Source of the DNA: Jezberella montanilacus
Lineage (GTDB): Bacteria > Pseudomonadota > Gammaproteobacteria > Burkholderiales > Burkholderiaceae_B
Direction of reading: 5' to 3'
DNA length: 64,000 nucleotides
Assembly: GCF_003003055.1 (NCBI RefSeq)
Contig: NZ_PVTV01000012.1
Coordinates: forward strand, 310,001 to 374,000
Shown: piece after piece, positions 2,358 through 24,979 of the stretch
Layout of the letters: the number at the start of each line of letters is the position of its first letter
Position numbering within the stretch: position 1 is the first letter of the stretch
Notes under the pieces: model-generated
The model's input: the letters and a program-made list of their open reading frames with translations, nothing else
Database searches by the model: none
Told to the model about the DNA's origin: nothing
Translations under genes and position numbers: made by a program

Positions 2358-3545
2358 ATGTCTATCCAGCTTCTGGTAGCTAGGAAGTTTCGAAACAAAA
2401 TTTTAGACAAATCCAATCTTGGTGCAGTCCTAGATTGGGCGTCCACAACGAACCAAAGGCTCAAGCGGAGCTTCAACAAGACAGAGCCGAGTGTTTATTA
2501 TCATTATTATAGTAGGTATACCCATCCTCACATACGAGAACGGTTTTACGATCACTCGGCACCGGTTCAATGGAAAAATTATGAGGACGCTGCCCTTGCT
2601 CACTTTTTGCAAATGCCAGAAAAGGTTGTTAAACCTTATCTTATTGAACCAAACGATCACATCTTAACAATTGGTCATATGTTTGGTGCAACTAAACCAT
2701 CAGAATTAATAAATCGAATCCCGGATATACAAGAAACGATCGCGTCTAATAACTTTAAAGGATTTTTGCTTGCACCAGATGGCCTAGAAGATCAGTTCAG
2801 ATATTATTTTGGTAATGATCATGAATGTAAAATGCTATTTTTTTCACAACGCCGATTTATCCCAACGGTCGATGTTTTAGCAAATAGGTGTGATAATAAT
2901 AAAAAGGTAAGCGAACCAGTTAATTTTCTATGTCTAGCAAGTGATCATGAGATTAAAGCTGTCGATATTTTGATAGATGCATGGTTGGCCATAAATCACT
3001 TGAATGGCGCCACACTAACGCTTGCTTGTCCAAATATTCCAGAGGAGTATCTCAGGCGTATCAAAGCTACTAAAAGTATTAAACTTATTCAAGCTGCACC
3101 GCTTAAAGCTTCGATAAAAAGTCAGTTGCTATCAGCGGGAGATGTATCTATTTTTTTAACACATATTGATGGAGGAGCAAATCTTACGGAGGGTATGGAA
3201 TACGGCCATGCGGTTATAGTCAATACGAGTCATCGCTCTAAATATATTGTCAATACTGAAAACGGACTAATTGTCAATTTTCCGCACGAATTTTATAAAT
3301 GTGGGCATTATGGTGTCGAATACGACAGCGTAGAAGAATATCTCGATATTGTTGAACAAGGCAAAAAAGCTGGTAATTACGATCGTTCCAAAATTGAGCT
3401 TCAGCGCGCTATCGTTGCGTACATTGAAAATCCAGAGTTATTACTTCAACATTCACAAAATACGCTTAAAGCAGTAGCAGAACAAAATCTCGAGCGCTCT
3501 AATACTGTTTTGTTAGATATCTATAAAAAGGCAATAGAAGGTTAA
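2358..3545 (+). CDS. Glycosyltransferase, GT-B fold (GT4-like)
   Basis: The 395-residue protein has a poorly conserved N-terminal half and a C-terminal half (from about residue 190) that looks like a GT4-type donor-binding domain. It has a conserved strand F-L-C-L-A-S-D-H-E-I-K-A-V-D followed by a helix, then IKLIQAAPLKASIKSQLLSA, and a late segment GGANLTEGMEYGHAVIV equivalent to the E-x7-E region of GT4 enzymes. No membrane segment is seen, so it is probably cytoplasmic. It lies 77 bases after the exporter and 15 bases before the next transferase gene, which fits one operon. The transferred sugar and acceptor are unknown. The family assignment is moderate because the N-terminal half is divergent. 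Confidence 0.65.
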   Translation: MSIQLLVARKFRNKILDKSNLGAVLDWASTTNQRLKRSFNKTEPSVYYHYYSRYTHPHIRERFYDHSAPVQWKNYEDAALAHFLQMPEKVVKPYLIEPNDHILTIGHMFGATKPSELINRIPDIQETIASNNFKGFLLAPDGLEDQFRYYFGNDHECKMLFFSQRRFIPTVDVLANRCDNNKKVSEPVNFLCLASDHEIKAVDILIDAWLAINHLNGATLTLACPNIPEEYLRRIKATKSIKLIQAAPLKASIKSQLLSAGDVSIFLTHIDGGANLTEGMEYGHAVIVNTSHRSKYIVNTENGLIVNFPHEFYKCGHYGVEYDSVEEYLDIVEQGKKAGNYDRSKIELQRAIVAYIENPELLLQHSQNTLKAVAEQNLERSNTVLLDIYKKAIEG

Positions 3546-4877: not shown

Positions 4878-5642
4878 ATGAAATTAGTTTTGTTAGCGGG
4901 TGGGTTGGGCACACGTATTTCTGAAGAAACGGGTTCGAGGCCTAAGCCGATGATAGAAATTGGCGGGAAACCAATACTCTGGCACATCATGAAGATCTAT
5001 TCTGCTCATGGCATCAATGATTTCATTGTTTGCTGTGGCTACAAGGGCTACGTGATTAAAGAGTACTTTGCAAACTATTTCCTTCACTCGTCTGATATCA
5101 CTATAGATTTATCGGCGAACGCGATTGAAGTTCATCATAAAAAAGCAGAGCCTTGGCGCGTAACTTTGGTCGACACTGGAGAGGAAACTCAAACAGGTGG
5201 GCGAATTAAGCGCATCGCAGAATATCTCGATGATGATTTTTGTTTAACTTACGGCGACGGTGTAGGCTCGGTTGACATCACAAAACTTCTGGAGTTCCAC
5301 CGTACTCACGGCAAACTTGCGACTATGACTGCAGTTCAAGCCCCTGGCCGGTTTGGGGCCATAAGTTTTGATGGTAATGCAGTCAGTGCCTTCGTTGAAA
5401 AACCATTGGGGGACGGTGGTTGGATCAATGGTGGATTTTTTGTACTAAATACGAAAGTGCTTGATTTGCTAGAGGATGATACGACCCTGTGGGAAGATAA
5501 GCCGCTTCAGACTTTAGCAAAATCAGGTCAGTTGCAATGTTATTTTCACAAAGAATTCTGGCAGCCGATGGATACATTGAGGGATAAAAGGCATTTGGAT
5601 GCGCTTTGGGCTTCTGGTGACGCTCCCTGGAAGGTTTGGTAA
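4878..5642 (+). CDS. rfbF: Glucose-1-phosphate cytidylyltransferase
   Basis: RfbF (DdhA) makes CDP-D-glucose from CTP and glucose-1-phosphate, the first step of CDP-3,6-dideoxyhexose and related pathways. The 254-residue length is normal. The N-terminus [20 protein letters not shown] contains the nucleotidyltransferase signature GGLGTR, followed by [12 protein letters not shown]. The metal-binding aspartate sits in T-Y-G-D-G-V (D127). Next-step partners rfbG and rfbH follow directly, which supports cytidylyl rather than uridylyl specificity. The stop is two bases before the preferred rfbG ATG, so the genes are probably translationally coupled. Confidence 0.95.
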
Positions 5643-5644
5643 CA

Positions 5645-6745
5645 ATGGAGTCAAGTGCCTTACCTGACGACCCTTTCTGGCGGGGTAAGAAAGTATTTTT
5701 AACCGGCCATTCGGGATTTAAAGGGGGCTGGCTGACCTTATGGCTCACTTTAATGGGTGCGAAGGTTACGGGTTATTCGCTCCCGCCAAATACTAAACCT
5801 TCCATGTTTGCTGTTTGCGGTGTTCAGGATGTCGCTGAATGCTCCTTATTTGGTGATATTCGTGAATATCAACAACTAGAACGGGCAATGAAGGATGCTG
5901 CGCCTGACATAGTGTTCCATTTAGCTGCGCAACCTTTAGTCCGGCATTCTTATGTTCACCCAGTTGAAACTTACCAAACTAATGTAATGGGGACGGTCAA
6001 TCTGCTTGAAGCAATGCGTCAGATCCGCACAATCCGAGCAGCAATCATTGTCACGACAGATAAGTGCTACGAAAATACCGAGCAATCAGTCGCTTTCAGC
6101 GAAGACGATCCTATGGGCGGCCACGATCCTTATAGCAGTAGTAAAGGTTGTGCAGAAATCGTAGTTTCGGCCTATCAACGTTCTTTTTTTTCGCGGGATA
6201 CATATCCCGCCCATGGTGTGGCTATTGCCACAGCTAGGGCCGGGAATGTCATAGGCGGTGGTGACTGGTCGGTTGATCGTCTTGTTCCAGATGCTCTTGC
6301 CGCCTTTCAAACCGGACAATACCTATCAATTCGGAACCCAAACGCAATCAGGCCGTGGCAGCATGTACTTGATCCACTTGCTGGCTATTTGGTGCTTGCG
6401 AAAAAACTGTTCAAATCTGGAGTGACCTATAATGGTGCTTGGAACTTTGGCCCAGATCCAGAAAACGAAAAGCGGGTGGTGGATGTAATTTCGTCTCTCG
6501 CATCTGCCTGGGGACCTTCGGCTAAGTGGCGTTATGACGAGGCAATACATGCGCATGAGGCTCGCTTTCTCAAACTGGATTGCTCTAAAGCGCACTCCCA
6601 ACTTGATTGGCGCCCACAGTATCCCCTTGAAATTGCTTTGCAAAAGACCGTCGAATGGCATCTTGCTGCGAGTGCCAGCAAAAATATGAGGGAGTTCAGT
6701 AATTCCCAAATTGCTGAATACAGATTGAGCCACTCAAGCAATTAG
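5645..6745 (+). CDS. rfbG: CDP-glucose 4,6-dehydratase
   Basis: RfbG (DdhB) is an extended-SDR enzyme converting CDP-glucose to CDP-4-keto-6-deoxyglucose with bound NAD+. The N-terminus shows the Rossmann motif T-G-H-S-G-F-K-G-G-W (about residue 20), in the G-H-x-G-F-K-G form usual for this family. The catalytic pair is Y163-S-S-S-K167, and a V-T-T-D-K-C-Y-E-N segment supplies the active-site Thr/Asp. The frame is open from a TTG at 5636, but ATG 5645 with a GGAAGG ribosome-binding site just before it gives the usual N-terminus. It sits between rfbF and rfbH in one transcription unit. Confidence 0.94.
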   Translation: MESSALPDDPFWRGKKVFLTGHSGFKGGWLTLWLTLMGAKVTGYSLPPNTKPSMFAVCGVQDVAECSLFGDIREYQQLERAMKDAAPDIVFHLAAQPLVRHSYVHPVETYQTNVMGTVNLLEAMRQIRTIRAAIIVTTDKCYENTEQSVAFSEDDPMGGHDPYSSSKGCAEIVVSAYQRSFFSRDTYPAHGVAIATARAGNVIGGGDWSVDRLVPDALAAFQTGQYLSIRNPNAIRPWQHVLDPLAGYLVLAKKLFKSGVTYNGAWNFGPDPENEKRVVDVISSLASAWGPSAKWRYDEAIHAHEARFLKLDCSKAHSQLDWRPQYPLEIALQKTVEWHLAASASKNMREFSNSQIAEYRLSHSSN

Positions 6746-6770
6746 GTACACACACCACTGAAGCATCCAG

Positions 6771-8114
6771 ATGAACAATCCTATTACTCTATCCGGCACG
6801 ACGGAACAAACTCAAATACGTAAACAGATCGCAGATCTGGTTGATCGATACGCAGCTATCGAGTTTGCAAAAAAGCCTTTTGTCCCAGGAGCAAGCGCGA
6901 TACCACCATCTGGAAAGTTGATCGATGGCAGTGAAATTAAAAATATGGTTGACGCTGCCCTAGATGGTTGGCTCACCACAGGGCGGTTTAATGAGCTTTT
7001 TCAAAACCGACTGGCTGCGTACATCGGTGTCAAGCACCTGCTCACAGTCAATTCTGGTTCCTCAGCAAATTTGATTGGTTTTTCGACTCTGACTTCCCCT
7101 AAGTTGGGTCACCGTGCCATCAAGAGAGGTGATGAGGTCATCGGGGTTGCCGCGGGCTTCCCAACAACCGTTAACCCAATTATTCAATTTGGAGCGATAC
7201 CAGTTTTTGTAGACGTTGATCCGTTTACACACAACATTGATGTAAGCAAAATTGAAGCAGCGATCACATCCAAGACAAAAGCTATTATGCTTGCGCACTC
7301 ACTTGGAAACCCCTTTGACGTTGCGGAGGTCTTAGCTATTTGCCAGAAATATGGCCTTTGGCTAATTGAGGACTGCTGCGACGCACTTGGCTCCACGTAT
7401 GGGGGGCAGAAGGTTGGGACCTTCGGGGATATTGGCACATTGAGCTTTTATCCTGCGCACCATATCACCATGGGTGAAGGCGGTGCGGTTTTTACCAACA
7501 ACACTGAACTCAAGGTAATAGCAGAAAGTTTTAGGGACTGGGGGCGTGATTGTTATTGCGCGCCAGGGAAGGACAATACTTGTGGTAGGCGCTTCTGCTG
7601 GAAATTAGGTGACTTGCCAGAGGGTTACGACCACAAATACACGTACAGTCACCTAGGCTACAACTTAAAAATTACAGATATGCAAGCTGCCTGTGCTTTA
7701 GCCCAACTGGATAAACTCCCATCATTCGTTCAAGCTAGGATAGAAAATTTCTCGTTTTTATTTGAACGCTTGCAGTCTTGCGCAGAGTTTTTACAACTGC
7801 CTGTAGCCACCAGAAATTCACAGCCGTCATGGTTCGGATTTCCAATAACTTTGAAAGCCAACGCACCTGTCACGCGCTTAGATCTTTTGACTTATCTCGA
7901 TCAAAAGAAAATTGGCACGCGATTGTTGTTTGCTGGCAATCTCACGCGTCAACCGTACATGGTTGATCTCGAATATAGAATCAGCGGTGATTTAACCAAT
8001 ACCGATATCGTGATGAACAACACATTTTGGATAGGAGTGCAACCTTCGTTGACTAAAGACATGCTCGAGTATGTTGCAACGAGTATCGAGACGTATCTTG
8101 GACTCGGGTTTTAA
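6771..8114 (+). CDS. rfbH: CDP-6-deoxy-L-threo-D-glycero-4-hexulose-3-dehydrase (E1)
   Basis: RfbH (DdhC/E1) is a PMP-dependent iron-sulfur enzyme that removes the C3 hydroxyl of CDP-4-keto-6-deoxyglucose. The aminotransferase-fold sequence has histidine (H230, in S-F-Y-P-A-H-H) where aminotransferases carry the PLP lysine, the hallmark of a dehydrase. The [2Fe-2S] ligands are complete: C203, C261, C263 and C271 give exactly the family spacing C-X57-C-X1-C-X7-C. Length (447) is normal. The reaction needs an NADH-dependent reductase partner (E3, DdhD/AscD), and none is seen in the window. It follows rfbG by 25 bases. Confidence 0.95.
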
Positions 8115-8167
8115 AGCTAGAGACTAGATTCGAGGAAAATCAACACTGTATTATATTTAATTTTCTA

Positions 8168-10051
8168 TTGCGCCGAGCACACCAATTGAAAGTATCTGAC
8201 TATCTTGCAGCCAAGTTATCGCATCACGGCCTATCCAGTGTTTATTTAGTCACTGGTGGTGGTGCGATGCACTTGAATGATGCATTCGCTCGGCATCCTC
8301 AGCTTGAAGTGCATTGTTTTCATCACGAGCAAGCCGCAGCAATTGCTGCCGAGGGATATGCCCGAGCAATACAGAAGCCATGCATACTCAATGTCACGAC
8401 AGGCCCTGGCGCGTTAAATGCTTTGGTTGGGGTTTATGGAGCATATGTTGACTCGGTGCCTATGTTCGTTGCATCAGGTCAAGTTAAAGTTGAAACACTC
8501 GCAGCTACGTACCCGCAAGTGCCACTTAGACAATTGGGCGATCAGGAAGTTGATATCACCTCTATGATTCGACCCATAGTCAAGTATGTCAGAGCAGTAA
8601 ACACGAGCGCCGACGTCTTTGATGCCATTGACCGGGCAATTTTTCTGATGACTTTTGGGCGACCGGGCCCAGTCTGGCTCGATATACCTATTGATATTCA
8701 GGCAGCACGGTTGCCTGATAGTCAGATTGCAGCTCGTAAGGAATACAGCTTGGACTTTGATGCAGTTATAGATGATTTGCTTCGTGATGAAGGATGTACA
8801 CCTAACACCATCCTAGAGCTGCAGCAGGCTAAAGCCAGGTTTGACGAACCACAAGATCAGTTCAGGCAAGCTATTGAAAAGCTCTCGGAAGCTAAGAGAC
8901 CACTCATATTCGTTGGTACCGGCGTTATGAGCAGTGCAAGAGCAGAATTTAGTCGGTTAATTAATAGGGTCGACTTGCCTGTTGTGCCGGGTTGGAACGC
9001 GATGGATTTAATCCCTTCAGACCATAAGAACTTTGCAGGAAGACCTGGTACCGTCGGTGATAGAGCAGGTAATTTTGCTGTTCAAAACGCCGATTTCATA
9101 CTGATTTTGGGTTGTCGCTTGAATATCCGGCAAATCAGCTATGGATGGCGTAACTTCGCCAAGAACGCTTTCAAAGTAATGGTCGACATTGACCAAGCGG
9201 AACTAGACAAGCCCACCCTTACAATCGATTTGAAAATTAAGACGGACGTTAAACACTTCCTAGATTACGCGCTCAAAACTATTCCTGACAAATCCCCTGA
9301 GCTTCATAGGGAATATAGGGACTGGTGTCGCACCAAAGTACAACGATACCCAGTTGTGAAAGACACGGTCCACTCAAATGGTCCGTTAAATCCTTATATT
9401 TTTCTTTATGCGCTCTCCAGGGGATTGTCCTCGGACGCTACTGTCGTAGCAGGTAACGGTGCCGCTTGCGTGATGACTTTTCAGGCGTTTGAAACCAAGA
9501 ATGGGCAAAGAATTTTTACAAACTCTGGCTGCGCATCTATGGGATATGAGCTGCCTGCTGCAATTGGCGCTGCATTAGCACTCAAGCGTGAACGCGCTGT
9601 CATATGTATTGCTGGCGACGGTAGCATCATGATGAATCTGCAAGAGTTACAAACGTTAGTTGGTAAGCAACTACCCGTCAAGATCTTCCTATTAAACAAT
9701 GACGGCTACCTATCCATAAAAATGACGCAGCAGGCTTATTTTTCTGACAACAAATTTGGAACGGATGCTTCAAATGGGCTGTCTCTGCCATCATTTAGAA
9801 ATGTTGCGATTGGTTTTGGGCTCGCCTATCAGTCAATTAATAATATTATCGAACTTGAGGATTTCCTTAAAAGTGACGAGTTTAATAGTCTGAAACCGAT
9901 GCTGATCGAGGTATTTGTAGATCCGGCACAAGCCTTCGAACCAAAATTGGCCTCCCGTATCAACGCAGACGGCACTATGTCCTCACCAGAACTGGATGAT
10001 ATGGCGCCGTTTCTATCGGAAACTGAACTAAGTCAGAATAGACTGTCGTAA
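8168..10051 (+). CDS. ThDP-dependent acetolactate-synthase-like enzyme (YerE-like candidate)
   Basis: This 627-residue protein has the three-domain plan of ThDP enzymes of the acetohydroxyacid synthase type. E54 in F-H-H-E-Q-A-A-A-I is the cofactor-activating glutamate, and G483-D484-G485 through N510-N511 form the ThDP/Mg2+ motif. The middle domain (about 220-390) resembles the FAD-binding domain of the group. In Yersinia, YerE of this family transfers a two-carbon unit from pyruvate to the C4 ketone of a CDP-3,6-dideoxy-4-ketohexose to make yersiniose. Its place directly after rfbF-rfbG-rfbH suggests the same kind of carbon-branching here. No ATG is available; TTG 8168 is the given start and TTG 8186 is an alternative. 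The exact acceptor is inference. Confidence 0.85.
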   Translation: MRRAHQLKVSDYLAAKLSHHGLSSVYLVTGGGAMHLNDAFARHPQLEVHCFHHEQAAAIAAEGYARAIQKPCILNVTTGPGALNALVGVYGAYVDSVPMFVASGQVKVETLAATYPQVPLRQLGDQEVDITSMIRPIVKYVRAVNTSADVFDAIDRAIFLMTFGRPGPVWLDIPIDIQAARLPDSQIAARKEYSLDFDAVIDDLLRDEGCTPNTILELQQAKARFDEPQDQFRQAIEKLSEAKRPLIFVGTGVMSSARAEFSRLINRVDLPVVPGWNAMDLIPSDHKNFAGRPGTVGDRAGNFAVQNADFILILGCRLNIRQISYGWRNFAKNAFKVMVDIDQAELDKPTLTIDLKIKTDVKHFLDYALKTIPDKSPELHREYRDWCRTKVQRYPVVKDTVHSNGPLNPYIFLYALSRGLSSDATVVAGNGAACVMTFQAFETKNGQRIFTNSGCASMGYELPAAIGAALALKRERAVICIAGDGSIMMNLQELQTLVGKQLPVKIFLLNNDGYLSIKMTQQAYFSDNKFGTDASNGLSLPSFRNVAIGFGLAYQSINNIIELEDFLKSDEFNSLKPMLIEVFVDPAQAFEPKLASRINADGTMSSPELDDMAPFLSETELSQNRLS

Positions 10052-10076
10052 GGCGCATCGCTAGGTGGATAACGTG

Positions 10077-10715
10077 ATGTCAAAACAACTATTCATATTC
10101 GACTTGGATGGAACGCTGGTTGACTCAAGCTCGACTGTGATCGGAATTCTGAATCAGCTACGAGCAGAGCGTCAATTGCCAACGCTTGCGACTGATGAGG
10201 TGTACCCCTATCTGAGTAATGGCGGTGGGCAGTTAATTGAACAATTCGTGTCGCGCGAAGAGCCTGTTGAAACTGTATTGAGCCAGTTTAGACTGCGATA
10301 CAGGGAGCACCCACTAGATACTGAGAGCGTGTATGTCGGGGCAAGGGAGTTTATTGAGACTTTACAACGAGCGAATCGAGCGGTTGCTATCTGTTCAAAC
10401 AAGCCAACTTTCCTGATAGAAAAGGTACTTAACCATCACGGTTTAAGTGATAACTTCGATATGGTGATAGGGGCATCCGACGTTACCGCTACAAAACCTG
10501 ATCCAGAGGGTATCCTAAAAATCTTGGCACTCGCGGATGTTTCGTCCAGTGAGGCTATTATGATTGGTGATAGCAAAAATGATCAAGAAGCCGCTCTGCG
10601 TTCCAAGGTGGCTTTTTTTCATCACCGATCGGGCTATGATGACGGGGTAGATGAGCGAAAAACCAGTCTGCAGTTTAACCATTACCATGAACTAACGAGA
10701 TTATTCAATGAATAG
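10077..10715 (+). CDS. HAD-superfamily phosphatase (phosphoglycolate phosphatase-like)
   Basis: The N-terminus MSKQLFIFDLDGTLVDSS contains the HAD nucleophile and general acid (D9, D11). S-N-K-P, then T-K-P-D-P and G-D-S-K-N-D are motifs II-IV, so the enzyme should be a catalytically competent phosphohydrolase of about 212 residues with a helical cap. It lies between the ThDP enzyme and the aldolase gene and overlaps the latter by a few bases, suggesting a role in the same sugar pathway, such as dephosphorylating an intermediate. The frame is open from GTG 10065, but ATG 10077 after GGTGGA is preferred. The substrate is unknown. Confidence 0.82.
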   Translation: MSKQLFIFDLDGTLVDSSSTVIGILNQLRAERQLPTLATDEVYPYLSNGGGQLIEQFVSREEPVETVLSQFRLRYREHPLDTESVYVGAREFIETLQRANRAVAICSNKPTFLIEKVLNHHGLSDNFDMVIGASDVTATKPDPEGILKILALADVSSSEAIMIGDSKNDQEAALRSKVAFFHHRSGYDDGVDERKTSLQFNHYHELTRLFNE

Positions 10716-11505
10716 CACTGAAAGAAAAATGCTCAGCATCCTAAAGGATATGGCTGAAAATTCCGAAGCTGTTGCGGTAAAAGCTGAATTTGAAGCTGAA
10801 GGTACACGGACTGAAGAATTACTACGATTGCTAGAGATTGCACGCAGGGCTGATGTAAAAATAGGCTTAAAAATTGGTGGCTGTGAGGCGATACGAGACT
10901 TGATCGAGGCGAAACAGTTTGGTGTCGAATATATTATTGCTCCAATGGTAGAGACTCCGTACGCGTTACAAAAATATATAGAAGCGAAGAACAAGGTTTT
11001 TACCCCTGATGAAAGAGGTGACATTGGGTTTTTGGTAAATATTGAAACCGATTCTGGGTTCCAACATTCAGCTGAAATGGCCGAATTAGCCGCGTCTGAG
11101 AATGGAATTCAGGGCCTAGTGTTTGGTCGTGTGGATTATGTGGGCTCTCTTGCAATGCCACGTGATTCCGTTAATTCGCCTGAGGTCCTTGCTGCCTGCC
11201 GAAAAGTTGCTTTAGATTGCAAAGCTCATGGTTTAGACTTTGTTGTCGGAGGTGGTATTTCGATAGATGCAGTTGATGTTCTCAAATCGATTAAGGATGC
11301 TCACCTATCTCGCTTTGAAACTAGAAAAATAATTTTTTCCGGCTCTGCGCTCGATAAGCCAGCTCTGAAACAAGGTTTGCTCAATGCGGTCCATTTCGAG
11401 TTGCTTTGGTTGCTCAACAAGCGTGAGTACTACTCCATCATTACCAATGAAGATGACAAAAGAATTGAGATGCTCGATAAGCGCTGGAAACTCTTAAGCC
11501 AGTAA
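10708..11505 (+). CDS. HpcH/HpaI aldolase / citrate lyase-family protein
   Basis: The 265-residue protein looks like a pyruvate/PEP-type TIM-barrel aldolase. K-I-G-G-C-E-A-I-R-D is followed by Y-I-I-A-P-M-V-E-T-P-Y-A-L, a strand carrying the metal-ligand glutamate seen in HpaI and citrate-lyase beta proteins. Then come L-V-N-I-E-T and F-G-R-V-D-Y-V-G, similar to the G-x-x-D segment that binds the second metal ligand. Such enzymes make or break C-C bonds using pyruvate, oxaloacetate or acetyl-CoA. Its ATG overlaps the HAD stop region and the next gene starts two bases after its stop, so it is embedded in the CDP-sugar operon. A role in side-chain formation is inference. Confidence 0.75.
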   Translation: MNSTERKMLSILKDMAENSEAVAVKAEFEAEGTRTEELLRLLEIARRADVKIGLKIGGCEAIRDLIEAKQFGVEYIIAPMVETPYALQKYIEAKNKVFTPDERGDIGFLVNIETDSGFQHSAEMAELAASENGIQGLVFGRVDYVGSLAMPRDSVNSPEVLAACRKVALDCKAHGLDFVVGGGISIDAVDVLKSIKDAHLSRFETRKIIFSGSALDKPALKQGLLNAVHFELLWLLNKREYYSIITNEDDKRIEMLDKRWKLLSQ

Positions 11506-11506
11506 G

Positions 11507-12658
11507 GTGAATTTGTTGCCTCAATTAGAAATCGCGAAGCGGGTGTGCAGGGTTTGCCTCGGTAAACGGCTGGAGCTTTTGTCTTCTCTGTCTGGGTTCC
11601 CGCGAGGGGCTCAGTACTTTTTGCCAGATCTGTCCAACGTAGATGCGGACAAATCAGTGAGTCTTGAAGTGGTGCAGTGTATCGATTGCGGACTAGTGCA
11701 GTTAACAAATGCACCGGTTGATTATTACCAAGACGTTATTACTGCTGCCGCGCTTTCGCCTAAATCCAAGGATCAATTGAAGCAAGAATGGCAACCGATC
11801 ATTACAAAACACAGCCTCCAAGGGAAACCTGCTATTGAAATAGGTTCAGGAACAGGTGATTTTCTGGAAGTCCTTAAACATTTAGGGCTTGTAGCTATAG
11901 GGTTGGAGCACTCGCAGACTAATGTTCACTCAGGTCAAGCCAAATCACTTAATGTACAAAAAGGATATCTCTTAGATAACCAGCCATTGGGTAAGTTCGC
12001 TCTCGTTGTTTGTAACAATTACTTAGAGCATCAGCCGCAAACAGGCACTTTTCTGAAAACACTAGCGAGCTTATTAGAAGACGACGGGATATTATATTTA
12101 TCGGTCCCAAACCTTGAGTATTTGCTAAGAAAGTCCTGTTTATACGAGTTTGTTGCTGATCATTTGGTTTATTTCACTCGGGATACTTTGCGGCTTGCCT
12201 GCGAGATAAGCGGATTAGTGGTGATCGATCAATATCAGAAAAATAATGATAATGATCTTGTCTTGATTGCAGCCAAGAGAAAGCCTCTGTGCCTCACTGA
12301 CAGCATAAAAATTGTTGATGAGATAAGTCGGTCGCTTAAACAGTGTGTCGTCCGAGCAAAGGAAGCTGGTAAAACTATCGCTGTTTGGGGCGCTGGCCAT
12401 CGTGCGCTGGCACTGATGGCTATTTCAGATTTAATAGAAATTGATTTCATCGTAGACTCTGCAACTTTCAAACAAGGCAATTTCACACCTTTGCTGCGAA
12501 AGAGGATAGTAAGCCCTGCGGAGTTGATAAAAAATGGGTGTGACTTGTTAATCGTCATGCTGCCTGGGAACTTTGCAAAGCACATAGAGACTTTTATCGT
12601 CGATAACAATTTAAGTTGTGAAGTGATATTTTTTGAAGATAAAAAACTCACTGTTTAA
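11507..12658 (+). CDS. Sugar C-methyltransferase-type protein (zinc-binding, SAM domain and C-terminal domain)
   Basis: The 383-residue protein follows the three-part plan of NDP-sugar C-methyltransferases such as TylC3 and NovU. An N-terminal zinc-binding module has C-R-V-C near residues 14-17 and C-I-D-C-G-L-V-Q near 60. A SAM-binding Rossmann domain has A-I-E-I-G-S-G-T-G-D-F at about 107-117. A C-terminal domain begins with T-I-A-V-W-G-A-G-H-R (about 286). Family members add a methyl group to a carbon next to a keto group of an NDP-deoxysugar. The GTG start at 11507 follows the aldolase stop by one base. The acceptor is presumably a CDP-ketosugar made by the upstream genes. Confidence 0.8.
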   Translation: MNLLPQLEIAKRVCRVCLGKRLELLSSLSGFPRGAQYFLPDLSNVDADKSVSLEVVQCIDCGLVQLTNAPVDYYQDVITAAALSPKSKDQLKQEWQPIITKHSLQGKPAIEIGSGTGDFLEVLKHLGLVAIGLEHSQTNVHSGQAKSLNVQKGYLLDNQPLGKFALVVCNNYLEHQPQTGTFLKTLASLLEDDGILYLSVPNLEYLLRKSCLYEFVADHLVYFTRDTLRLACEISGLVVIDQYQKNNDNDLVLIAAKRKPLCLTDSIKIVDEISRSLKQCVVRAKEAGKTIAVWGAGHRALALMAISDLIEIDFIVDSATFKQGNFTPLLRKRIVSPAELIKNGCDLLIVMLPGNFAKHIETFIVDNNLSCEVIFFEDKKLTV

Positions 12659-12684
12659 CAGTAATAACAAGTTGGAGTAAGAAC

Positions 12685-13833
12685 ATGAGCGAACAGCAAC
12701 TTGCTGTGCTACAGCCGCGTATTCATTCTGCTAATAAGCGACCATTGGAAGATCTTTTGCCAATTGCGACACCTATATCAGCGCATATTGATATCTCTAG
12801 CGTTTGTAACTATAAATGCAGTTTTTGTTTTCAAGCCGACACAGTCGGAATGAAGAAGGCTGGCCTCAAACGCGGCTTTATGAGTCTTGAGCTATTTAAA
12901 AAAATAGTCGATGATTTTGATGCCTTCCCTGACAAGATAAAGAAAATAAAAATAGGCAACCACGGTGAACCATCGCTGAATCCTAATTTTGTTGACATGA
13001 TCGCTTACGCGCGGGCGAGTGACTCTGCGGACATCATCGAAGTCTTTACCAATGGATCTAAGCTAACTCCTGAAATCAATTCGGGCTTGATTAGTGCTGG
13101 ATTGCAGCGCATCAATATTTCATTGGAAGGCTTGACGGATGAGCGGTATTACCAAGTCGCAGGTGTTCGTCAAAATTTTCAGGAAATAATTGATGGCGTT
13201 AGAGACTTATATGAACAAAAACAGAGAGCAAATAGCGATCTGAAAATATACGTGAAAATTGCAGATCAAGCGCATGCGTTGAAAAAAGAGTCTACAGAAA
13301 TATTTTTACTCTCAGAACAAGAGCGCAAGTATTTCTTGGATACTTTTAGTCCTATCTGCGATGAGATTTTCATCGAAAAAGTTGTCCCACAATGGGCAGA
13401 AACCCAGCTTGACAAACAAAATGAAGTCTCTGACAGAGGCATGTACGATCAGGAAATAAAAGCTTGGAAAGAAGTTTGCCCTTTCATATTCATGTATATG
13501 CATTTCAATTGTGATGGCACTGTAAGTCCTTGCACATTAGATTGGCCGAGAAAAGTGGTGATTGGCAATGTGAGCGAACAATCGGTTTCAGAGATATGGA
13601 CGGGTGCACTTCTAAAAGAACTGCAAGTTGCGATGATTGCGGGTAAGCGGAAGTGCGTAAACTTCTGCGGCTCTTGTTCGGCCCCGATGGTTTGCGTAGA
13701 AGAAAACCTTGATCCGCATTTGGACAAGGTTATTCGGTCAATTAGCGCCCAAAAAGAGATGGGAGATCTGGCTTCTAATCGTTGGCTAAAAACGGTTGAC
13801 CAAGTGATTAACTTCCAGTCGGTTGAGCGTTAG
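12685..13833 (+). CDS. Radical SAM protein with SPASM-like C-terminus
   Basis: C41-x3-C45-x2-C48 (V-C-N-Y-K-C-S-F-C) is the radical SAM [4Fe-4S] motif, followed by a GEPSLNP-type segment (N-H-G-E-P-S-L-N-P), the SAM-binding GGE-like loop. The C-terminal part (about residues 270-350) has C-D-G-T-V-S-P-C and then C-V-N-F-C-G-S-C, typical of a SPASM/twitch auxiliary cluster domain. At 382 residues it is a normal size. The preceding intergenic gap is 26 bases and the next ATG comes 4 bases after its stop, so it belongs to the sugar operon. The reaction is unknown; dehydration, epimerisation or C-C bond chemistry on a sugar nucleotide are possibilities. Confidence 0.85.
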   Translation: MSEQQLAVLQPRIHSANKRPLEDLLPIATPISAHIDISSVCNYKCSFCFQADTVGMKKAGLKRGFMSLELFKKIVDDFDAFPDKIKKIKIGNHGEPSLNPNFVDMIAYARASDSADIIEVFTNGSKLTPEINSGLISAGLQRINISLEGLTDERYYQVAGVRQNFQEIIDGVRDLYEQKQRANSDLKIYVKIADQAHALKKESTEIFLLSEQERKYFLDTFSPICDEIFIEKVVPQWAETQLDKQNEVSDRGMYDQEIKAWKEVCPFIFMYMHFNCDGTVSPCTLDWPRKVVIGNVSEQSVSEIWTGALLKELQVAMIAGKRKCVNFCGSCSAPMVCVEENLDPHLDKVIRSISAQKEMGDLASNRWLKTVDQVINFQSVER

Positions 13834-13837
13834 GTCG

Positions 13838-14710
13838 ATGGCAAGGCTATTAATACTCGGAGCTAACGGTTTTATCGGGAAAAACTTAAAAGAGTTTTTT
13901 TTAAAAACAACAGATTATGATGTTTTGGCTCCGACTAGGCATGAACTAAATTTGTTGGACGATGCGGCCTGCACTGATTATCTTGGGGCACACTTGCCCG
14001 AATTTGTTATTCATTGTGCTGTCGATATTACCTCAGTTGAAAAGACGCTTGCGATGTTTTTCAACATCTACAATCAAAAGGCTTCTTTTGGTCAGTTGAT
14101 CACACTGGGATCTGGCGCAGAATACGATAAGCGATGTTACACCCCTAATATGACCGAAGAACGGTTGGGTATCAGCGTGCCGATAGATACCTATGGGCTT
14201 GCTAAATACCTAATCGCGCGAGAGATTGAAAACGGTCGCAACTCTAACGTTTTGAATTTAAGGGTGTTTGGTATATTTGGTCCGCACGAAGATATCAATC
14301 GTCGATTCATATCCAACAATATATGCAGAGTCCTGTGTGGTTTACCAATATCAGTTAACCGCGACATGCTCTTTAATTATATCTATGTGGATGATCTTGC
14401 GAAGGCTATAGCCCTCATATTGCCAAAGTTACCTTTACACTCGAAAAGTTATAACTTTTGCAGAAGTGCTTCAGACTCTTTGTTAGACATAGCCGAGTTG
14501 ATCCATCGTAAACTGAGTGTTGAGTCAGAAGTTATTGTCCGAACACCCGGGAGAAATCCTGAGTACTCGGGGTGCCCCGATAAGTACTTTAAGGAAGTAG
14601 GTCATGTGCAGTTTGAACCCATGGACGTGTCAATAGATAAGTTGATCAAATACTACACGCAATGCATGGGGTCGGGTGAGTTAAAAGCACTGCGCGAGAA
14701 ATGGAAGTAG
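13838..14710 (+). CDS. NAD-dependent epimerase/dehydratase (SDR), possible YerF-like reductase
   Basis: An extended-SDR protein of 290 residues. The N-terminus MARLLILGANGFIGKNLKEF has the G-A-N-G-F-I-G dinucleotide motif, and the catalytic pair is in Y-G-L-A-K. The frame is open from TTG 13823, but ATG 13838 follows TTAGGT and gives the usual short N-terminus. In the Yersinia yersiniose pathway an SDR (YerF) reduces the new two-carbon side chain after YerE; this gene is a candidate for such a step. A decayed relative lies 2.7 kb downstream (16565-16720), pointing to a past duplication or a lost second SDR. Confidence 0.82.
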   Translation: MARLLILGANGFIGKNLKEFFLKTTDYDVLAPTRHELNLLDDAACTDYLGAHLPEFVIHCAVDITSVEKTLAMFFNIYNQKASFGQLITLGSGAEYDKRCYTPNMTEERLGISVPIDTYGLAKYLIAREIENGRNSNVLNLRVFGIFGPHEDINRRFISNNICRVLCGLPISVNRDMLFNYIYVDDLAKAIALILPKLPLHSKSYNFCRSASDSLLDIAELIHRKLSVESEVIVRTPGRNPEYSGCPDKYFKEVGHVQFEPMDVSIDKLIKYYTQCMGSGELKALREKWK

Positions 14711-14764
14711 GAATTAATCGGTAACTTTGGCGTCATAGTCCATATCTTATTTGGGATCCATATA

Positions 14765-16093
14765 GTGAGTAATAAGCATCAAATTCTACCCAAATTAAAG
14801 AATAAAAAAGTGATCATTTGGGGTGCACGAATGACGGGGATTGGGGCGCACCGTTTCTTGGCAGCCCACAATATACCCATCGAATTTTTCATTGATTCAG
14901 ACCTCGCATTTCAAAACAATAAGGTACTAAATTTAGAAGTAGTTGTACCAACCGATGTCAAAGAAAAACTAGATTCCAACGCTCAGTACGTTATTCTTGT
15001 AGCAGTATCATTGAAAGAAGAAGAGATAAAACGCATCATCGATAAACTGGGGCTGGATGGTGTAGTCGAAGTAATTAGCTTCAGAGACAATGAGAACCCT
15101 TACTTCACAGTAGATATTTTGAGCTCCTGTAATTTGAGGTGCGCTTCCTGCCCCCACAGCATTGAAGACCATGACGTCCCGCGCGGTTCAATGTCACTAG
15201 AGACGTTTAAAGAGGTTTTTGACAAGATACTCGCGGATGCACCCTCTATATCGCACATCAGTTTATACAGCTGGGGCGAACCACTAATCCATCCGCATGT
15301 CGCTGAAATTGTGGAGTATGTGCACGCTAAAAATGTTGCTGTAGCTTTATCAAGTAATTTATCGATAAAATTTGAAGATCGAATAGAACGTCTAATATCG
15401 ATGTCCCCAGACTATTTAAAAATTTCAGTGTCTGGCTATTATCCGACTGCCTACAATAATACTCACGCAGGTGGGGACATTAATCTTGTTAAGTCAAATC
15501 TGTACCGATTGAGATATCTGTTAGACAAATATTCGTCTAACACAGTCGTCGATATCAATTACCATCTGTACAGGGATAACTCGGGCCAAAATCTTCTTAA
15601 ATTTAAAGAACTGGCCCAAGAGCTTAACTTCATTTTCTCAGAAACATATGCGCTCGTGATGCCATTGGAAAGGGTCCTATCTCACCTCGAGGGAGCGCCA
15701 GATTTTCAAACTAAGAGATTGGAAAGCAATCTTTTAGTCACAATTGATGAGGGTATTGCCGTTTCTTCAATCGGAGCAACAGCTTCGACGGAATGTCCTT
15801 TTCGCGAAAATCAAATCAATATCAATGCGGATTTAACGGTGCCAGTATGTTGTACTGTATTTGAACGTGGTGAAAATGTTGTTGCTCAGAATTTTTTGAA
15901 TGCTAGCCTCAGCGAAATCGCGTCGGCGAAGTCTAAAGTCGAGTTGTGCACAAAATGTACATCACTTAAATTGCCTGAATACAATATGGGTTACAACAGA
16001 GCCGAATGGCTGAAATTGGCTCAGTCAAAGACTCTAAACGACGTCGGCAGCAAGTCAGCGCCAAAAGTGATTAGATTGCTGAATGATCATTGA
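14765..16093 (+). CDS. Radical SAM protein with N-terminal nucleotide-binding-like domain
   Basis: The 442-residue protein has two parts. Residues 1-110 start with K-K-V-I-I-W-G-A-R-M-T-G-I-G and continue with I-E-F-F-I-D-S-D. This resembles the C-terminal domain of the C-methyltransferase-type protein upstream, with its V-W-G-A-G-H-R and I-D-F-I-V-D-S. Residues 111-442 are a radical SAM domain with C122-x3-C126-x2-C129 and S-W-G-E-P-L-I-H as the GGE-like loop. C-terminal cysteines (V-C-C, then C-T-K-C) suggest a SPASM-like auxiliary cluster. The GTG start is 54 bases after the SDR gene, and the 3' end overlaps the Nudix gene by 11 bases. Function is unknown; I infer a role in the same unusual sugar. 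Confidence 0.82.
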   Translation: MSNKHQILPKLKNKKVIIWGARMTGIGAHRFLAAHNIPIEFFIDSDLAFQNNKVLNLEVVVPTDVKEKLDSNAQYVILVAVSLKEEEIKRIIDKLGLDGVVEVISFRDNENPYFTVDILSSCNLRCASCPHSIEDHDVPRGSMSLETFKEVFDKILADAPSISHISLYSWGEPLIHPHVAEIVEYVHAKNVAVALSSNLSIKFEDRIERLISMSPDYLKISVSGYYPTAYNNTHAGGDINLVKSNLYRLRYLLDKYSSNTVVDINYHLYRDNSGQNLLKFKELAQELNFIFSETYALVMPLERVLSHLEGAPDFQTKRLESNLLVTIDEGIAVSSIGATASTECPFRENQININADLTVPVCCTVFERGENVVAQNFLNASLSEIASAKSKVELCTKCTSLKLPEYNMGYNRAEWLKLAQSKTLNDVGSKSAPKVIRLLNDH

Positions 16094-16568
16094 CCACATA
16101 AGATCGATTGAAAACAAAATTTCAGACCCTAGGGATGGTCTGGTCGATGATCTGTTCTATTTTGTGGGACGACTAACTCCTTATGTAAATGTAGATCTGT
16201 TAATTCGACATCCCGAGCACGGTGTATTAATGACTTGGCGCGATGACGAGCACAGTGGTAAGGGATGGCATGTCCCAGGAGGGATAATCCGACTAAAAGA
16301 GAAAATTGAAACTCGAATAATAAAAGTCGCATTAACGGAACTCAATGCGGAGGTAACTAGTTTCAAAGGACCTCTTGCTATTAATGAAATTATTGCTGAA
16401 GAAAAAACAAATCGTTCTCACTTCATTTCGCTACTATACCAATGTGAGTTAACAACAGAGTCACTTGACTGTTTGATTGAAACAAAAGATCAAAATATCA
16501 GATTCTTTCAAGCCAAACCTGCTGACATCCTATCCTGGCATGAAATATACGCTGAATATTTTCTATGA
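16083..16568 (+). CDS. Nudix hydrolase, GDP-mannose mannosyl hydrolase-like
   Basis: The 161-residue protein contains a modified Nudix box: G-G-I-I-R-L-K-E then A-L-T-E-L-N-A-E. The central R-E-U-x-E-E is replaced by a sequence lacking the usual REU, as in the Gmm (GDP-mannose mannosyl hydrolase) family, whose members hydrolyse sugar nucleotides rather than making phosphate bond cleavages of the usual Nudix kind. Upstream, W-H-V-P-G-G-I-I fits Gmm W-x-x-P-G-G. It overlaps the radical SAM gene. Its ATGA end overlaps the start of a decayed SDR gene. It may act on an NDP-sugar pool; the substrate is unknown. Confidence 0.8.
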   Translation: MIIDHIRSIENKISDPRDGLVDDLFYFVGRLTPYVNVDLLIRHPEHGVLMTWRDDEHSGKGWHVPGGIIRLKEKIETRIIKVALTELNAEVTSFKGPLAINEIIAEEKTNRSHFISLLYQCELTTESLDCLIETKDQNIRFFQAKPADILSWHEIYAEYFL

Positions 16569-16720
16569 TTAATTTGTGAATAACAGGCGCTGACGGTTTT
16601 ATCGGGAGAAATTTAGCCGAGTATTTTCGTGCAGCAACTGGGTATACAGCTTTTGCGTCAAGCTATATAGAATTTGATCAAACGGTTGAATACTACGATC
16701 AAAAAGATGAAGACTCGTAA
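16565..16720 (+). pseudogene. Truncated SDR epimerase remnant with internal stop
   Basis: ATG 16565 overlaps the Nudix stop (ATGA). The frame reads M-I-N-L, then TGA, then ITGADGFIGRNLAEYFRAAT and stops at TAA 16718-16720. The segment after the TGA matches the N-terminus of the intact SDR at 13838 (L-G-A-N-G-F-I-G-K-N-L-K-E-F-F). It is therefore the N-terminal quarter of a second SDR gene, with a nonsense codon at position 5 and the rest lost. Not expected to be functional. Confidence 0.65.
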
Positions 16721-16785
16721 AGTGTGAGTGGCGATACCACTGAAACACCAGTTGAGCTCAATGGGCCAATTTTACTTGTTCGAGG

Positions 16786-16956
16786 CTACGATGAAACTCG
16801 GTCGATTAAGTCTGCGTGATGGTCAATATTCAGAAAGAAAAAATTCGTTTCAATTGTAGATTCACTCATCAGACTAAACTCTTCGAGTAAGTTTTTCTTG
16901 ATGATGTAGGATCGATACCCAAGTGATTTAAATAAGTTAAATATCTCGTTTGACCG
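16786..16956 (-). pseudogene. C-terminal remnant of an FkbM-like methyltransferase
   Basis: On the reverse strand, 56 codons run between a TAG at 16959-16957 and a TAG at 16788-16786 with no start codon and ribosome-binding site. The translation (R-S-N-E-I-F-N-L-F-K-S-L-G-Y then T-N-F-F-F-L-N-I-D) resembles the C-termini of FkbM-family methyltransferases, which end with an E-x-F-x-L-F-x-S-L-G-Y helix followed by N-x-F-F-L. The N-terminal SAM-binding part is missing. The family assignment is tentative. Confidence 0.4.
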
Positions 16957-22699: not shown

Positions 22700-23578
22700 T
22701 CAGGCTGGCCAAAGTGCCCATGCGCAGGCGGCGCACCACACGACGATCGTTATCAATAGTGGCCAATCTGCCAAAAAAGCGTCTGTTGGTGATTCACCCG
22801 CATCCAGTACATCCACGACATACCAATAGCGAAAGAGCCCGAATAGTACGAGGGGTACAGTCACGATCAACTCAGGGCGGCTGGACATCACGAACATACT
22901 GTAGAACACCAGCGCACAAGTGGCGGACATCTCTGCGTATTTGTCAACAAGCGGTTTTGTGTATTTGGATAAGACTGCTCGGCCCTCAGTGCCACTAAGA
23001 CTGAGTTCTTGGCTACGCTTAATCGCGGCCAAATATAAGGCTAGGCAAAGTGTGGTCACAAACATCCAGCCAGAGACGGGCGCATTCAGTGCGACTGCAC
23101 CTGCAAGAACCCTAAGAACGAACCCGATTGCGATCGTGAAAATATCAACCACAGGCTGGTGCTTAAGAATAAACGTATAAGCTAAATTCAGACAGCTATA
23201 TCCCACGATCACCATGATAACTTTGGGCTCAACGATATAGCCAGCGATCAGGCCACCATAAAGACAGACAAGTACACAAAGTGCCAGTGATATGGGGATG
23301 GTCCCAGCAGCTAGAGGCCGAGACTTAGACTTGGTTGGATGCAGGCGATCTCGATTGATATCTTTGAGATCATTAACAATGTAGGTTGCGGATGACGCTA
23401 GGCAAAAAAGCACAGCAGCTAAGACTGCGCTTTTAAGTGATGCAGGGTTGGTGAACCGTCCCGTAAAGAGCAACGGAGCCAATACAAACCCGTTTTTGAC
23501 CCATTGTTTAATTCGAATAAGCTTGAAGAGATCTTTAACAAGCGCCCCTGCTGGTTTTTTTGAGTCGTTGACGTGCAT
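22700..23578 (-). CDS. UbiA-type decaprenyl-phosphate phosphoribosyltransferase
   Basis: The 292-residue membrane protein has about eight hydrophobic segments and the UbiA metal/substrate motif N69-D70-x2-D73-x3-D77-x2-H80. It is followed by P-T-K-S-K-S-R-P-L-A-A-G, the signature of the branch that transfers 5-phosphoribose from PRPP to decaprenyl phosphate (Rv3806c-like) rather than a quinone ring prenyltransferase. The N-terminal L-I-R-I-K-Q-W-V-K-N is also typical of this branch. DprE1 and DprE2 genes start 98 bases away on the other strand, which fixes the pathway: decaprenylphosphoryl-D-arabinofuranose. The product is made at the inner membrane, with the active site facing the cytoplasm in known members. 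Confidence 0.88.
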   Translation of the reverse strand: MHVNDSKKPAGALVKDLFKLIRIKQWVKNGFVLAPLLFTGRFTNPASLKSAVLAAVLFCLASSATYIVNDLKDINRDRLHPTKSKSRPLAAGTIPISLALCVLVCLYGGLIAGYIVEPKVIMVIVGYSCLNLAYTFILKHQPVVDIFTIAIGFVLRVLAGAVALNAPVSGWMFVTTLCLALYLAAIKRSQELSLSGTEGRAVLSKYTKPLVDKYAEMSATCALVFYSMFVMSSRPELIVTVPLVLFGLFRYWYVVDVLDAGESPTDAFLADWPLLITIVVWCAACAWALWPA

Positions 23579-23675
23579 GGGGGTTAAAATCCGCAGTCGT
23601 TGAAATAACGATCTATTTTCGCATTAATCCGCGGGCGCGTAAAACAATAAGGAATCGAGTAATGGGTGGTGTGTC
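23579..23675. promoter_or_regulatory. Divergent spacer between the UbiA and DprE1 genes
   Basis: These 97 bases must carry promoters for both halves of the arabinofuranose-donor pathway. A small inverted repeat (TCGTT-GAAAT-AACGA, near 23600) lies in the middle. No convincing -35/-10 pair is visible. Confidence 0.3.
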
Positions 23676-24977
23676 GTGAGACCCGTTTCATCTTGGGGGC
23701 GATTAAGCCGAGCCTCTTACGAAGTGAAATATTGCTCAAGTATTTCTCACGCAGCGAATGCGATCAAGTTGGCCAAGCCGGGTATCCCATTTGGTAACGG
23801 TCGAAGCTACGGTGACGCTTGTTTAAATCAGGACGGTTATCTTTGGGCCACGAGAGCCCTCGATTATTTCAGCTCGTTTGATCAGCAAACGGGTCTTTTA
23901 AGGTGCGAGGCTGGCGTCTTACTCAAGGATATTCAAGCCTTGGTCGTGCCAAATGGCTGGATGTTGCCTGTCACGCCGGGTACGCAGTTGATTACCGTTG
24001 GTGGCGCAATTGCCAATGATGTCCATGGCAAGAATCATCACCGACAGGGATCCTTCTCGGACCATATCACTCGCCTAACGCTGTTGAGAACCGATGGCGA
24101 AGTGATCGAATGCGGGCCTCAGCTAAACCACGACTGGTTTGTTGCGATCGTTGGTGGCATTGGCTTAACCGGTTTGATTGTTGAGGCTGAAATACAGCTC
24201 AAGAGAGTTCCTGGCCCGTGGTTGACGACTGAAACAATCCCTTACGCCAATATTGTCGAGTTTTTCAAACTTGCGGATGACTCTGAAGCCGATTGGGAAC
24301 ATACGGTCTCGTGGATAGATTGTCTTGCTGGAAATGGCGGTAGAGGTTTGTTCATGCGAGGAAACCATCGCCCTGTCATTGCTGAAGCACGCCTTAAGAA
24401 AAAGCAGTCTCGCATCCCCTTTGTTCCACCGATCTCATTGGTCAATAAACTTACCCTGAGGCCATTTAACGAAGCATATTATTGGTTGAACAAGCGTAAA
24501 GCGGGTGAACAAACGACCGTGCACTATCAGCCATTCTTTTATCCCCTGGATAATCTGCAAGACTGGAACAAAATGTATGGTCCTCAAGGGTTCTACCAGT
24601 ATCAAAGCGTGGTACCCCGAGATGTGGGCCAGGACGCAATCACTGAAATGCTTAAGCAAATTGGCCAATCTGGTGAAGGCTCATTTCTAGCAGTGTTAAA
24701 GACCTTCGGTGATCGAGAGTCAGTCGGCCTCTTGAGTTTCGCGCAACCCGGTGTGACTTTGGCATTAGATTTCCCGAACAAGGGCGTAAAAACGCTTAAA
24801 TTGTTTGAGCGGCTAGATCAGATCATAAGTGAGGCTAAGGGTCGGATTTATCTTGCTAAAGATGCTCGAATGCCTAAGTCGTTATTTGAAAGTGGTTACC
24901 CAAGGTTTCAAGAGCTTATCAAGTATCGAGATCCTGGCATCAGTTCAGACATGTCGCGACGCCTATTTGGAATATAA
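23676..24977 (+). CDS. dprE1: Decaprenylphosphoryl-beta-D-ribose oxidase (DprE1-like FAD oxidoreductase)
   Basis: The 433-residue FAD-dependent oxidase oxidises the C2 hydroxyl of decaprenylphosphoryl ribose. Motifs seen are F-G-N-G-R-S-Y-G-D (FAD loop), T-P-G-T-Q-L-I-T-V-G-G-A-I-A-N-D-V-H-G-K-N (H117 equals H132 of the Mycobacterium enzyme) and L-A-K-D-A-R with K395, equivalent to catalytic K418. The position matching the benzothiazinone-target cysteine (C387) is alanine (A363, in A-L-D-F-P). The GTG start at 23676 is the only good one; an ATG at 23662 is out of frame. The dprE2 ATG comes two bases after its stop, so the pair is translationally coupled. Confidence 0.92.
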   Translation: MRPVSSWGRLSRASYEVKYCSSISHAANAIKLAKPGIPFGNGRSYGDACLNQDGYLWATRALDYFSSFDQQTGLLRCEAGVLLKDIQALVVPNGWMLPVTPGTQLITVGGAIANDVHGKNHHRQGSFSDHITRLTLLRTDGEVIECGPQLNHDWFVAIVGGIGLTGLIVEAEIQLKRVPGPWLTTETIPYANIVEFFKLADDSEADWEHTVSWIDCLAGNGGRGLFMRGNHRPVIAEARLKKKQSRIPFVPPISLVNKLTLRPFNEAYYWLNKRKAGEQTTVHYQPFFYPLDNLQDWNKMYGPQGFYQYQSVVPRDVGQDAITEMLKQIGQSGEGSFLAVLKTFGDRESVGLLSFAQPGVTLALDFPNKGVKTLKLFERLDQIISEAKGRIYLAKDARMPKSLFESGYPRFQELIKYRDPGISSDMSRRLFGI

Positions 24978-24979
24978 CA

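Follow-up and report, generated by a model that had tools for sequence, protein, structure and literature searches.

A predicted operon for a CDP-activated, higher-carbon branched sugar in Jezberella montanilacus

Introduction

Yersiniose A is made by DdhA-DdhB-DdhC, YerE and YerF, with a branch of two carbons drawn from pyruvate, and its gene set is not known to include aldolase, HAD, C-methyltransferase or radical S-adenosylmethionine (SAM) genes. The branches of erwiniose and caryophyllose both end in a CH3 group. Here, we analyze a block of 11 genes at positions 4878-16568 of a 64,000-nucleotide stretch of Jezberella montanilacus DNA (hereafter, the window). The block encodes homologues of DdhA, DdhB, DdhC and YerE, the last a thiamine diphosphate enzyme (ThDP). 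It differs from the yersiniose A system in carrying an aldolase (ALD), a HAD phosphatase (HAD), a C-methyltransferase (CMT) and two radical SAM proteins (rS1 and rS2), which accompany the block in other genomes as well. We interpret the block, with a probability of roughly 0.6, as an operon predicted to supply a surface polysaccharide with a cytidine diphosphate (CDP)-activated, 4-C-branched, higher-carbon 3,6-dideoxy sugar.

ErwE and MMAR_2332 are closer precedents. Together with YerE and JanthE, they are described, in a literature covered in part, as YerE-like enzymes linked to 4-C-branched sugars. Excerpts of PMC12247030 report that ErwE (erwiniose) prefers hydroxylated 2-oxo acids, 4-hydroxy-2-oxo acids, and state a similar donor preference for MMAR_2332 (caryophyllose). 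Compounds of this kind are what HpcH/HpaI aldolases produce. The caryophyllose branch, as given in excerpts of PMC5706390, is a 1,3,4,5-tetrahydroxyhexyl chain that ends in CH3 and has a CH2 beside its first carbon, where a pyruvate aldol would leave it. The excerpts of these two sources mention no C-methyl group, radical SAM enzyme, C-methyltransferase or alternation between HAD and a 3-dehydroquinate-synthase-like cyclase (DHQS) for the ErwE and MMAR_2332 systems. Among the literature matches listed, no title or abstract opening describes the present gene set. YerE-like branched sugars are thus already established. Three elements were not found described in this partial literature, which stops short of the primary ErwE work: the aldolase-phosphate logic, DHQS as an alternative partner, and the module of CMT, rS1, a short-chain dehydrogenase/reductase (SDR) and rS2.

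Results

Linkage of the aldolase with CDP-sugar genes

When named genomes were scanned with an ALD alignment of three rows, 152 relatives emerged, of which the best 80 were kept. Linkage was counted in the 47 of these 80 loci with at least 20 kb of sequence, the 33 shorter loci being excluded. In this set, rfbF, rfbG or rfbH is present in 45 loci, a ThDP relative in 43 and all four genes in 28. Since RfbG scores over its cut-off in just 18 of 114 class genomes, own genome included, the linkage of rfb genes with ALD lies far above background. The preliminary description had proposed that the genes following rfbFGH extend its chemistry towards an unusual, possibly higher-carbon branched sugar. 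Its direction holds: rather than occurring mostly apart from rfbFGH, the later genes travel with it and with a ThDP relative, and therefore very likely extend that chemistry, with a higher-carbon branch fitting best. The closer precedents ErwE and MMAR_2332 were not named there.

All 11 genes lie on the + strand with their open reading frames (ORFs) intact. They form the unbroken run of overlaps and tiny gaps first described, with spacings in block order of -7, 25, 53, 13, -8, 1, 26, -11, 54 and -11 nt and flanks of 219 and 466 nt. Promoter and terminator scanning of the block found sites no more numerous than in shuffled sequence, so the term operon is based on tight spacing and conservation instead. 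Recurrence of the same gene sets in unrelated genomes argues against a chance assembly.

CDP-sugar genes and the YerE-like enzyme

The first three genes encode a glucose-1-phosphate cytidylyltransferase (rfbF, 4878..5642; TIGR02623, 454 bits against an NCBI curated cut-off of 300), a CDP-glucose 4,6-dehydratase (rfbG, 5636..6745; TIGR02622, 493 bits against a curated NCBI cut-off of 278) and a CDP-4-keto-6-deoxyglucose 3-dehydrase of the pyridoxal phosphate family (rfbH, 6771..8114; NF011936, 732 bits against 423). On this family-level evidence, the RfbH route is predicted to lead to a 3,6-dideoxy-4-keto sugar.

ThDP (8168..10051) encodes a YerE-like carboligase with all three Pfam TPP domains (N/M/C). 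Its best match among PDB sequences is 8rph at 347 bits, the next scoring 220 bits, and the family profile gives 590 bits to 8rph versus 388 to the best acetolactate synthase. The protein carries a GDG-X24-NN motif, and E54, taken as the catalytic glutamate, is invariant across 29 aligned proteins. By these sequence measures, it is nearer to YerE-like enzymes than to acetolactate synthases. The 8rph record names its protein only as thiamine pyrophosphate-binding protein; we take it to be JanthE of Janthinobacterium, the closest solved relative of the window enzyme. It has the CDG motif that excerpts of PMC12188165 report for JanthE, whereas the window enzyme has the ordinary GDG.

Excerpts of the same source describe JanthE as taking short and long 2-oxo acids alike, with physiological substrates not identified, and homology therefore does not fix the ThDP donor. 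This breadth, together with the use of pyruvate by YerE (excerpts of PMC12247030), would accord with a plain yersiniose-type pathway, in which ThDP adds two carbons from pyruvate while ALD, HAD and the radical proteins serve a separate neighbouring sugar or side group. The pairing of ALD with a ThDP relative in the long loci (43/47) spans several phyla, however, and the order ThDP-HAD-ALD is kept in the window block and in L012, L018, L027 and L047, which makes such a division of labour improbable.

A divergent aldolase and its alternating partners

ALD (10708..11505) is predicted to be a divergent pyruvate-type aldolase with the HpcH/HpaI or phosphoenolpyruvate (PEP)-pyruvate TIM-barrel fold. 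It scores 39.3 bits against Pfam HpcH_HpaI (cut-off 25), and a fold search returned the barrel type of pyruvate/PEP enzymes; a 52-row ALD profile found no match among PDB sequences. The HpcH/HpaI class II pyruvate aldolases, SwHKA and SbnG share 12-18% identity with ALD among those listed, and their invariant residues on strands 2 and 3 differ from those of ALD.

HAD (10065..10715) is a phosphoglycolate-phosphatase-like HAD phosphatase (HAD_2, E 1.5e-36) that scores under the phosphoglycolate phosphatase cut-offs. Partners within 6 kb of ALD were counted in 85 loci, namely the 80 kept together with L006, L009 and L117-L119, with the window excluded. HAD alone accompanies ALD in 22 loci and DHQS alone in 50, while one locus has both and 12 have neither (p 8e-11). 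Among the 57 loci in which 5 kb of sequence flanks ALD in each direction, the corresponding numbers are 16, 36, 1 and 4 (p 1.3e-9). The sole locus with both partners is L052, whose HAD lies >4 kb from ALD, and 8 of the 12 partner-less loci have <3 kb of sequence on one side of ALD. The HAD of L117-L119 belongs to another HAD subfamily. SDRc is present in 48 of 51 DHQS loci, none of the 22 HAD loci and 2 of the 12 others.

The partner label switches at least 10 times on a quickly built tree of 77 ALDs, with at least four switches forced by well supported branches. The Prochlorococcus ALDs of L047 and L061, for example, are tree neighbours (support 88) with different partners. Because a HAD phosphatase and a DHQS-like cyclase both consume a phosphate ester, this mutual exclusion and repeated swapping indicate that the ALD product is probably a phosphate ester.

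Two Bradyrhizobium loci (L033 and L034, about 8037-16944) have the order rfbF-rfbG-ALD-SDRc-DHQS-EPI-ThDP, with no rfbH in the stretch covered. They are candidate operons for a carbocyclic branched 6-deoxy sugar that would keep its 3-hydroxyl. Excerpts of PMC4743980 call the bradyrhizose genes unknown. We rejected this cluster type as the bradyrhizose operon: ALD occurs in 2 of 146 genus genomes, neither among the 12 photosynthetic ones, each of which has a single DHQS match at AroB level (no better than E 1e-52 versus 3e-188 for the cluster enzyme).

Phage records contain no ALD, and viral contigs contain one ALD locus, L006 (an IMG/VR contig). Its positions 5001-10189 encode ALD together with a DHQS-like cyclase, a ThDP enzyme and two SDRs, one of them RmlD-like, and no rfb gene lies within the 10.8 kb covered. 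This set could be part of the carbocycle branch of the pathway on a possible phage. Three plasmid records carry ALD, two from Novosphingobium (rfbF-rfbG-ALD) and one from Ilyobacter in a seemingly catabolic setting. The ALD relatives of L081 and L145 adjoin a B12-binding radical SAM gene. Neither a ThDP gene nor any rfb gene is present in the sequence covered around them, and they may reflect a different use of the aldolase. Within the family, ALD is found in 2 of 151 genomes, the second at E 2e-4.

A module of C-methylation and radical SAM genes

CMT (11507..12658) is a sugar C-methyltransferase with a SAM domain, a C-terminal Rossmann-like domain and a weak match to a zinc-binding domain. 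Methyltransf_14 (44.7 bits, cut-off 23.5) and Methyltransf_23 (62.1 bits, cut-off 27) exceed their Pfam cut-offs, while the N-terminal zinc-binding domain Methyltransf_13 scores 26.8 bits, under its cut-off of 31.3; C14, C17, C58 and C61 are invariant in six aligned proteins. The nearest PDB sequences are D-mycarose 3-C-methyltransferase and TcaB9. TcaB9 and MtmC are the nearest solved relatives, and CMT passes the Pfam cut-off for two of the three domains of this type. Both act on thymidine diphosphate sugars of antibiotics, whereas the expected substrate of CMT is a CDP-sugar or the branch attached to it. In their structures, the C-terminal domain presumably faces the nucleoside diphosphate (NDP)-sugar.

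rS1 (12685..13833) is a radical SAM/SPASM protein with a CX3CX2C motif and with Radical_SAM and SPASM over Pfam cut-offs. It has cysteines that are invariant in alignments, and its nearest solved auxiliary domain in the PDB belongs to the cyclitol dehydrogenase BtrN. SDR (13823..14710) is an RmlD-like extended SDR with the YxxxK motif (Epimerase, 5.4e-22), presumed to be a ketoreductase. rS2 (14765..16093) is a radical SAM protein (Radical_SAM over cut-off) with an N-terminal Rossmann-like domain and a Cys-rich C-terminus, in which C344, C362, C395 and C398 are invariant in 10 proteins. Its predicted model (pLDDT 84.7) has the fold of SPASM/twitch radical SAM enzymes. Both rS1 and rS2 bear the sequence hallmarks of SPASM/twitch radical SAM carbohydrate dehydrogenases of the BtrN and SpcY type, enzymes that oxidise a hydroxyl of a sugar or cyclitol; such an activity would be a candidate for rS1 and rS2. 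An hhalign comparison relates the N-terminal domain of rS2 to the C-terminal one of CMT (probability 86.9, E 4.1e-6), and this shared Rossmann-like domain suggests that the two proteins hold the same nucleotide-sugar intermediate. The last gene, NUD (16083..16568), encodes a Gmm-like Nudix protein with a degenerate Nudix box (NUDIX 20.2 bits, under the cut-off of 21.1), whose sole matches among PDB sequences are GDP-mannose mannosyl hydrolases (Gmm; E up to 0.01).

The preliminary description had suggested searching other genomes for the same gene order. CMT, rS1, SDR and rS2 recur together near ALD in six further genomes (L026, L027, L058, L077, L117 and L119). L117-L119 were reached through the rS1 search; L118, a 16.8 kb contig, has ALD, rS1, SDR, NUD and CMT, with no rS2 match. 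The genes rS1-SDR-rS2 are consecutive in the window block, L026, L027, L058, L077 and L119, and close, not consecutive, in L117. CMT stands without radical genes in L012, and L085 has a 22% relative. A B12-binding radical SAM gene, absent from the window block, occurs in L026, L027, L117 and L118. Relatives of NUD are found in L026, L117, L118 and L119, and also in L023, L033 and L034, which lack the tailoring module.

Among 398 phylum genomes, the rS1 search gave three strong matches besides the own genome (E under 1e-175), all adjoining ALD, and four genomes with weaker relatives only (E about 1e-78 to 1e-85). No ALD was found around weaker rS1 relatives over 20 kb in L122 or over 4 kb in L103-L106 and L108. 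Within the genus, rS1 is present in 1 of 32 genomes, the own one, and viral contigs contain relatives at only 21-27% identity. At E 1e-40, rS2 is found in 3 of 369 class genomes, namely the own genome, L120 and L121; the surroundings of the latter two contain no ALD and no rfb gene. In L120, positions 12256-16085 hold three tandem genes, each ~31% identical to rS2.

This module also bears on a second alternative, in which ALD, HAD, CMT, rS1, SDR and rS2 would finish a free phosphorylated 2-oxo acid and ThDP would only attach it, the NDP-sugar not being their substrate. HAD and CMT directly flank ALD in the window, and CMT-family enzymes act beside ketones, of which a 2-oxo acid offers one. However, the nearest relatives of CMT are NDP-sugar C-methyltransferases, and rS2 has a domain related to the one that we take to face the NDP-sugar in TcaB9 and MtmC; we therefore judge this order of events unlikely. 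That rS1 and rS2 are SPASM-family peptide or protein maturases unrelated to the sugar is very improbable: SPASM proteins often mature peptides and the best Foldseek matches of rS2 include anSME and SuiB, but DesII, BlsE and SpeY are also among its matches, the auxiliary domain of rS1 is nearest to that of a cyclitol dehydrogenase, and the genes for rS1, SDR and rS2 keep their association with one another and with ALD across genomes.

Genomic surroundings

Upstream of the block lie an ABC transporter gene, an ORF at 2358-3545 that matches no Pfam family and a GT10-like gene; a GNT-I-like glycosyltransferase gene lies downstream. Elsewhere in the window, positions 22700-25732 carry genes resembling decaprenyl-phosphate phosphoribosyltransferase (NF008978, barely above cut-off), DprE1 and DprE2 (both under cut-off), and the top PDB match of the DprE2-like protein is DprE1. 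These genes likely represent a polyprenyl-phosphate arabinose pathway beside polysaccharide genes. Positions 33318-35507 encode a 729-amino-acid fusion of a zinc-dehydrogenase domain with a GFO/IDH/MocA domain.

Discussion

In the pathway that we propose, RfbF, RfbG and RfbH would convert glucose 1-phosphate to CDP-4-keto-3,6-dideoxyglucose, as their families predict. ALD would join pyruvate and an aldose phosphate into a phosphorylated 3-deoxy-4-hydroxy-2-oxo acid. ThDP, by analogy with its family and with ErwE in particular, would decarboxylate this acid and attach the resulting acyl unit at the C4 ketone, generating a tertiary alcohol, with HAD stripping the phosphate before or after the transfer. 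In sister clusters, a DHQS-like cyclase and an SDR probably replace HAD, using the phosphate as a leaving group to close a carbocycle, as the mutual exclusion and swapping of partners suggest. CMT would add a methyl group to a carbon adjoining a ketone, either C3 or one within the branch. Acting with SDR, rS1 and rS2 may bring about oxidation, epimerisation or deoxygenation at carbons that bear hydroxyls. NUD may clear stray CDP-sugar by hydrolysis.

Several observations weigh against this interpretation. RfbH requires an E3 reductase, and none was seen in the block, outside which no search was made. The catalytic residues of HpaI are, we assume, His45 and Arg70; the strand 2 motif of ALD, KAEFEAEGTR, has no His, and an invariant Lys55 on strand 3 stands where Arg70 is expected from strand order. 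An ordinary pyruvate aldolase mechanism therefore seems not assured. Two of the 47 long loci, L060 and L062, lack rfb genes. A sample drawn without the pattern scan found ALD in 8 of 398 phylum genomes, one being the own genome; of the seven others, two of which represent DNA already in L042 and L063, four have rfb genes and five a ThDP gene within the sequence covered, some contigs being short, and the distant ALD of L145 has neither. As to the partners, L009, L023, L076 and L085 have neither HAD nor DHQS despite at least 5 kb of sequence to either side. The partner label is clustered on the ALD tree (none of 500 shuffles reached so low a value) and partly tracks ThDP subtype: ThDP is of the window type in 17 of 22 HAD loci and 14 of 51 DHQS loci. 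The ALD loci are also not independent samples.

A broader and more tentative possibility is a ‘phosphate fork’ in surface-sugar biosynthesis. ALD would make a phosphorylated 2-oxo acid resembling 3-deoxy-D-arabino-heptulosonate 7-phosphate (DAHP), which a YerE-like enzyme would decarboxylate and attach to a CDP-keto-sugar at C4. A phosphatase would then give a linear branch, whereas a DHQS-like cyclase and SDR would give a carbocycle C-C bonded to the sugar; the window would represent the linear form, remodelled by C-methylation and two radical SAM steps. The chemistry is conceivable: with erythrose 4-phosphate as the aldehyde, the product would resemble DAHP. Once ThDP had transferred the chain, C4 of the sugar would occupy the position of the DAHP carboxylate, so that a DHQS-like enzyme could close a six-membered ring.

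To our knowledge, no radical SAM enzyme or C-methyltransferase has been shown on a CDP-sugar pathway so far. If correct, this scheme would assign a C-methyltransferase and a pair of radical SAM enzymes to such a pathway and would explain the origin of the carbon chains in longer-branched sugars. It would also provide further aldolase/ThDP pairs for tertiary alcohol synthesis, and would predict that Proteobacteria, cyanobacteria and Acidobacteria contain a family of nucleotide sugars bearing carbocycles.

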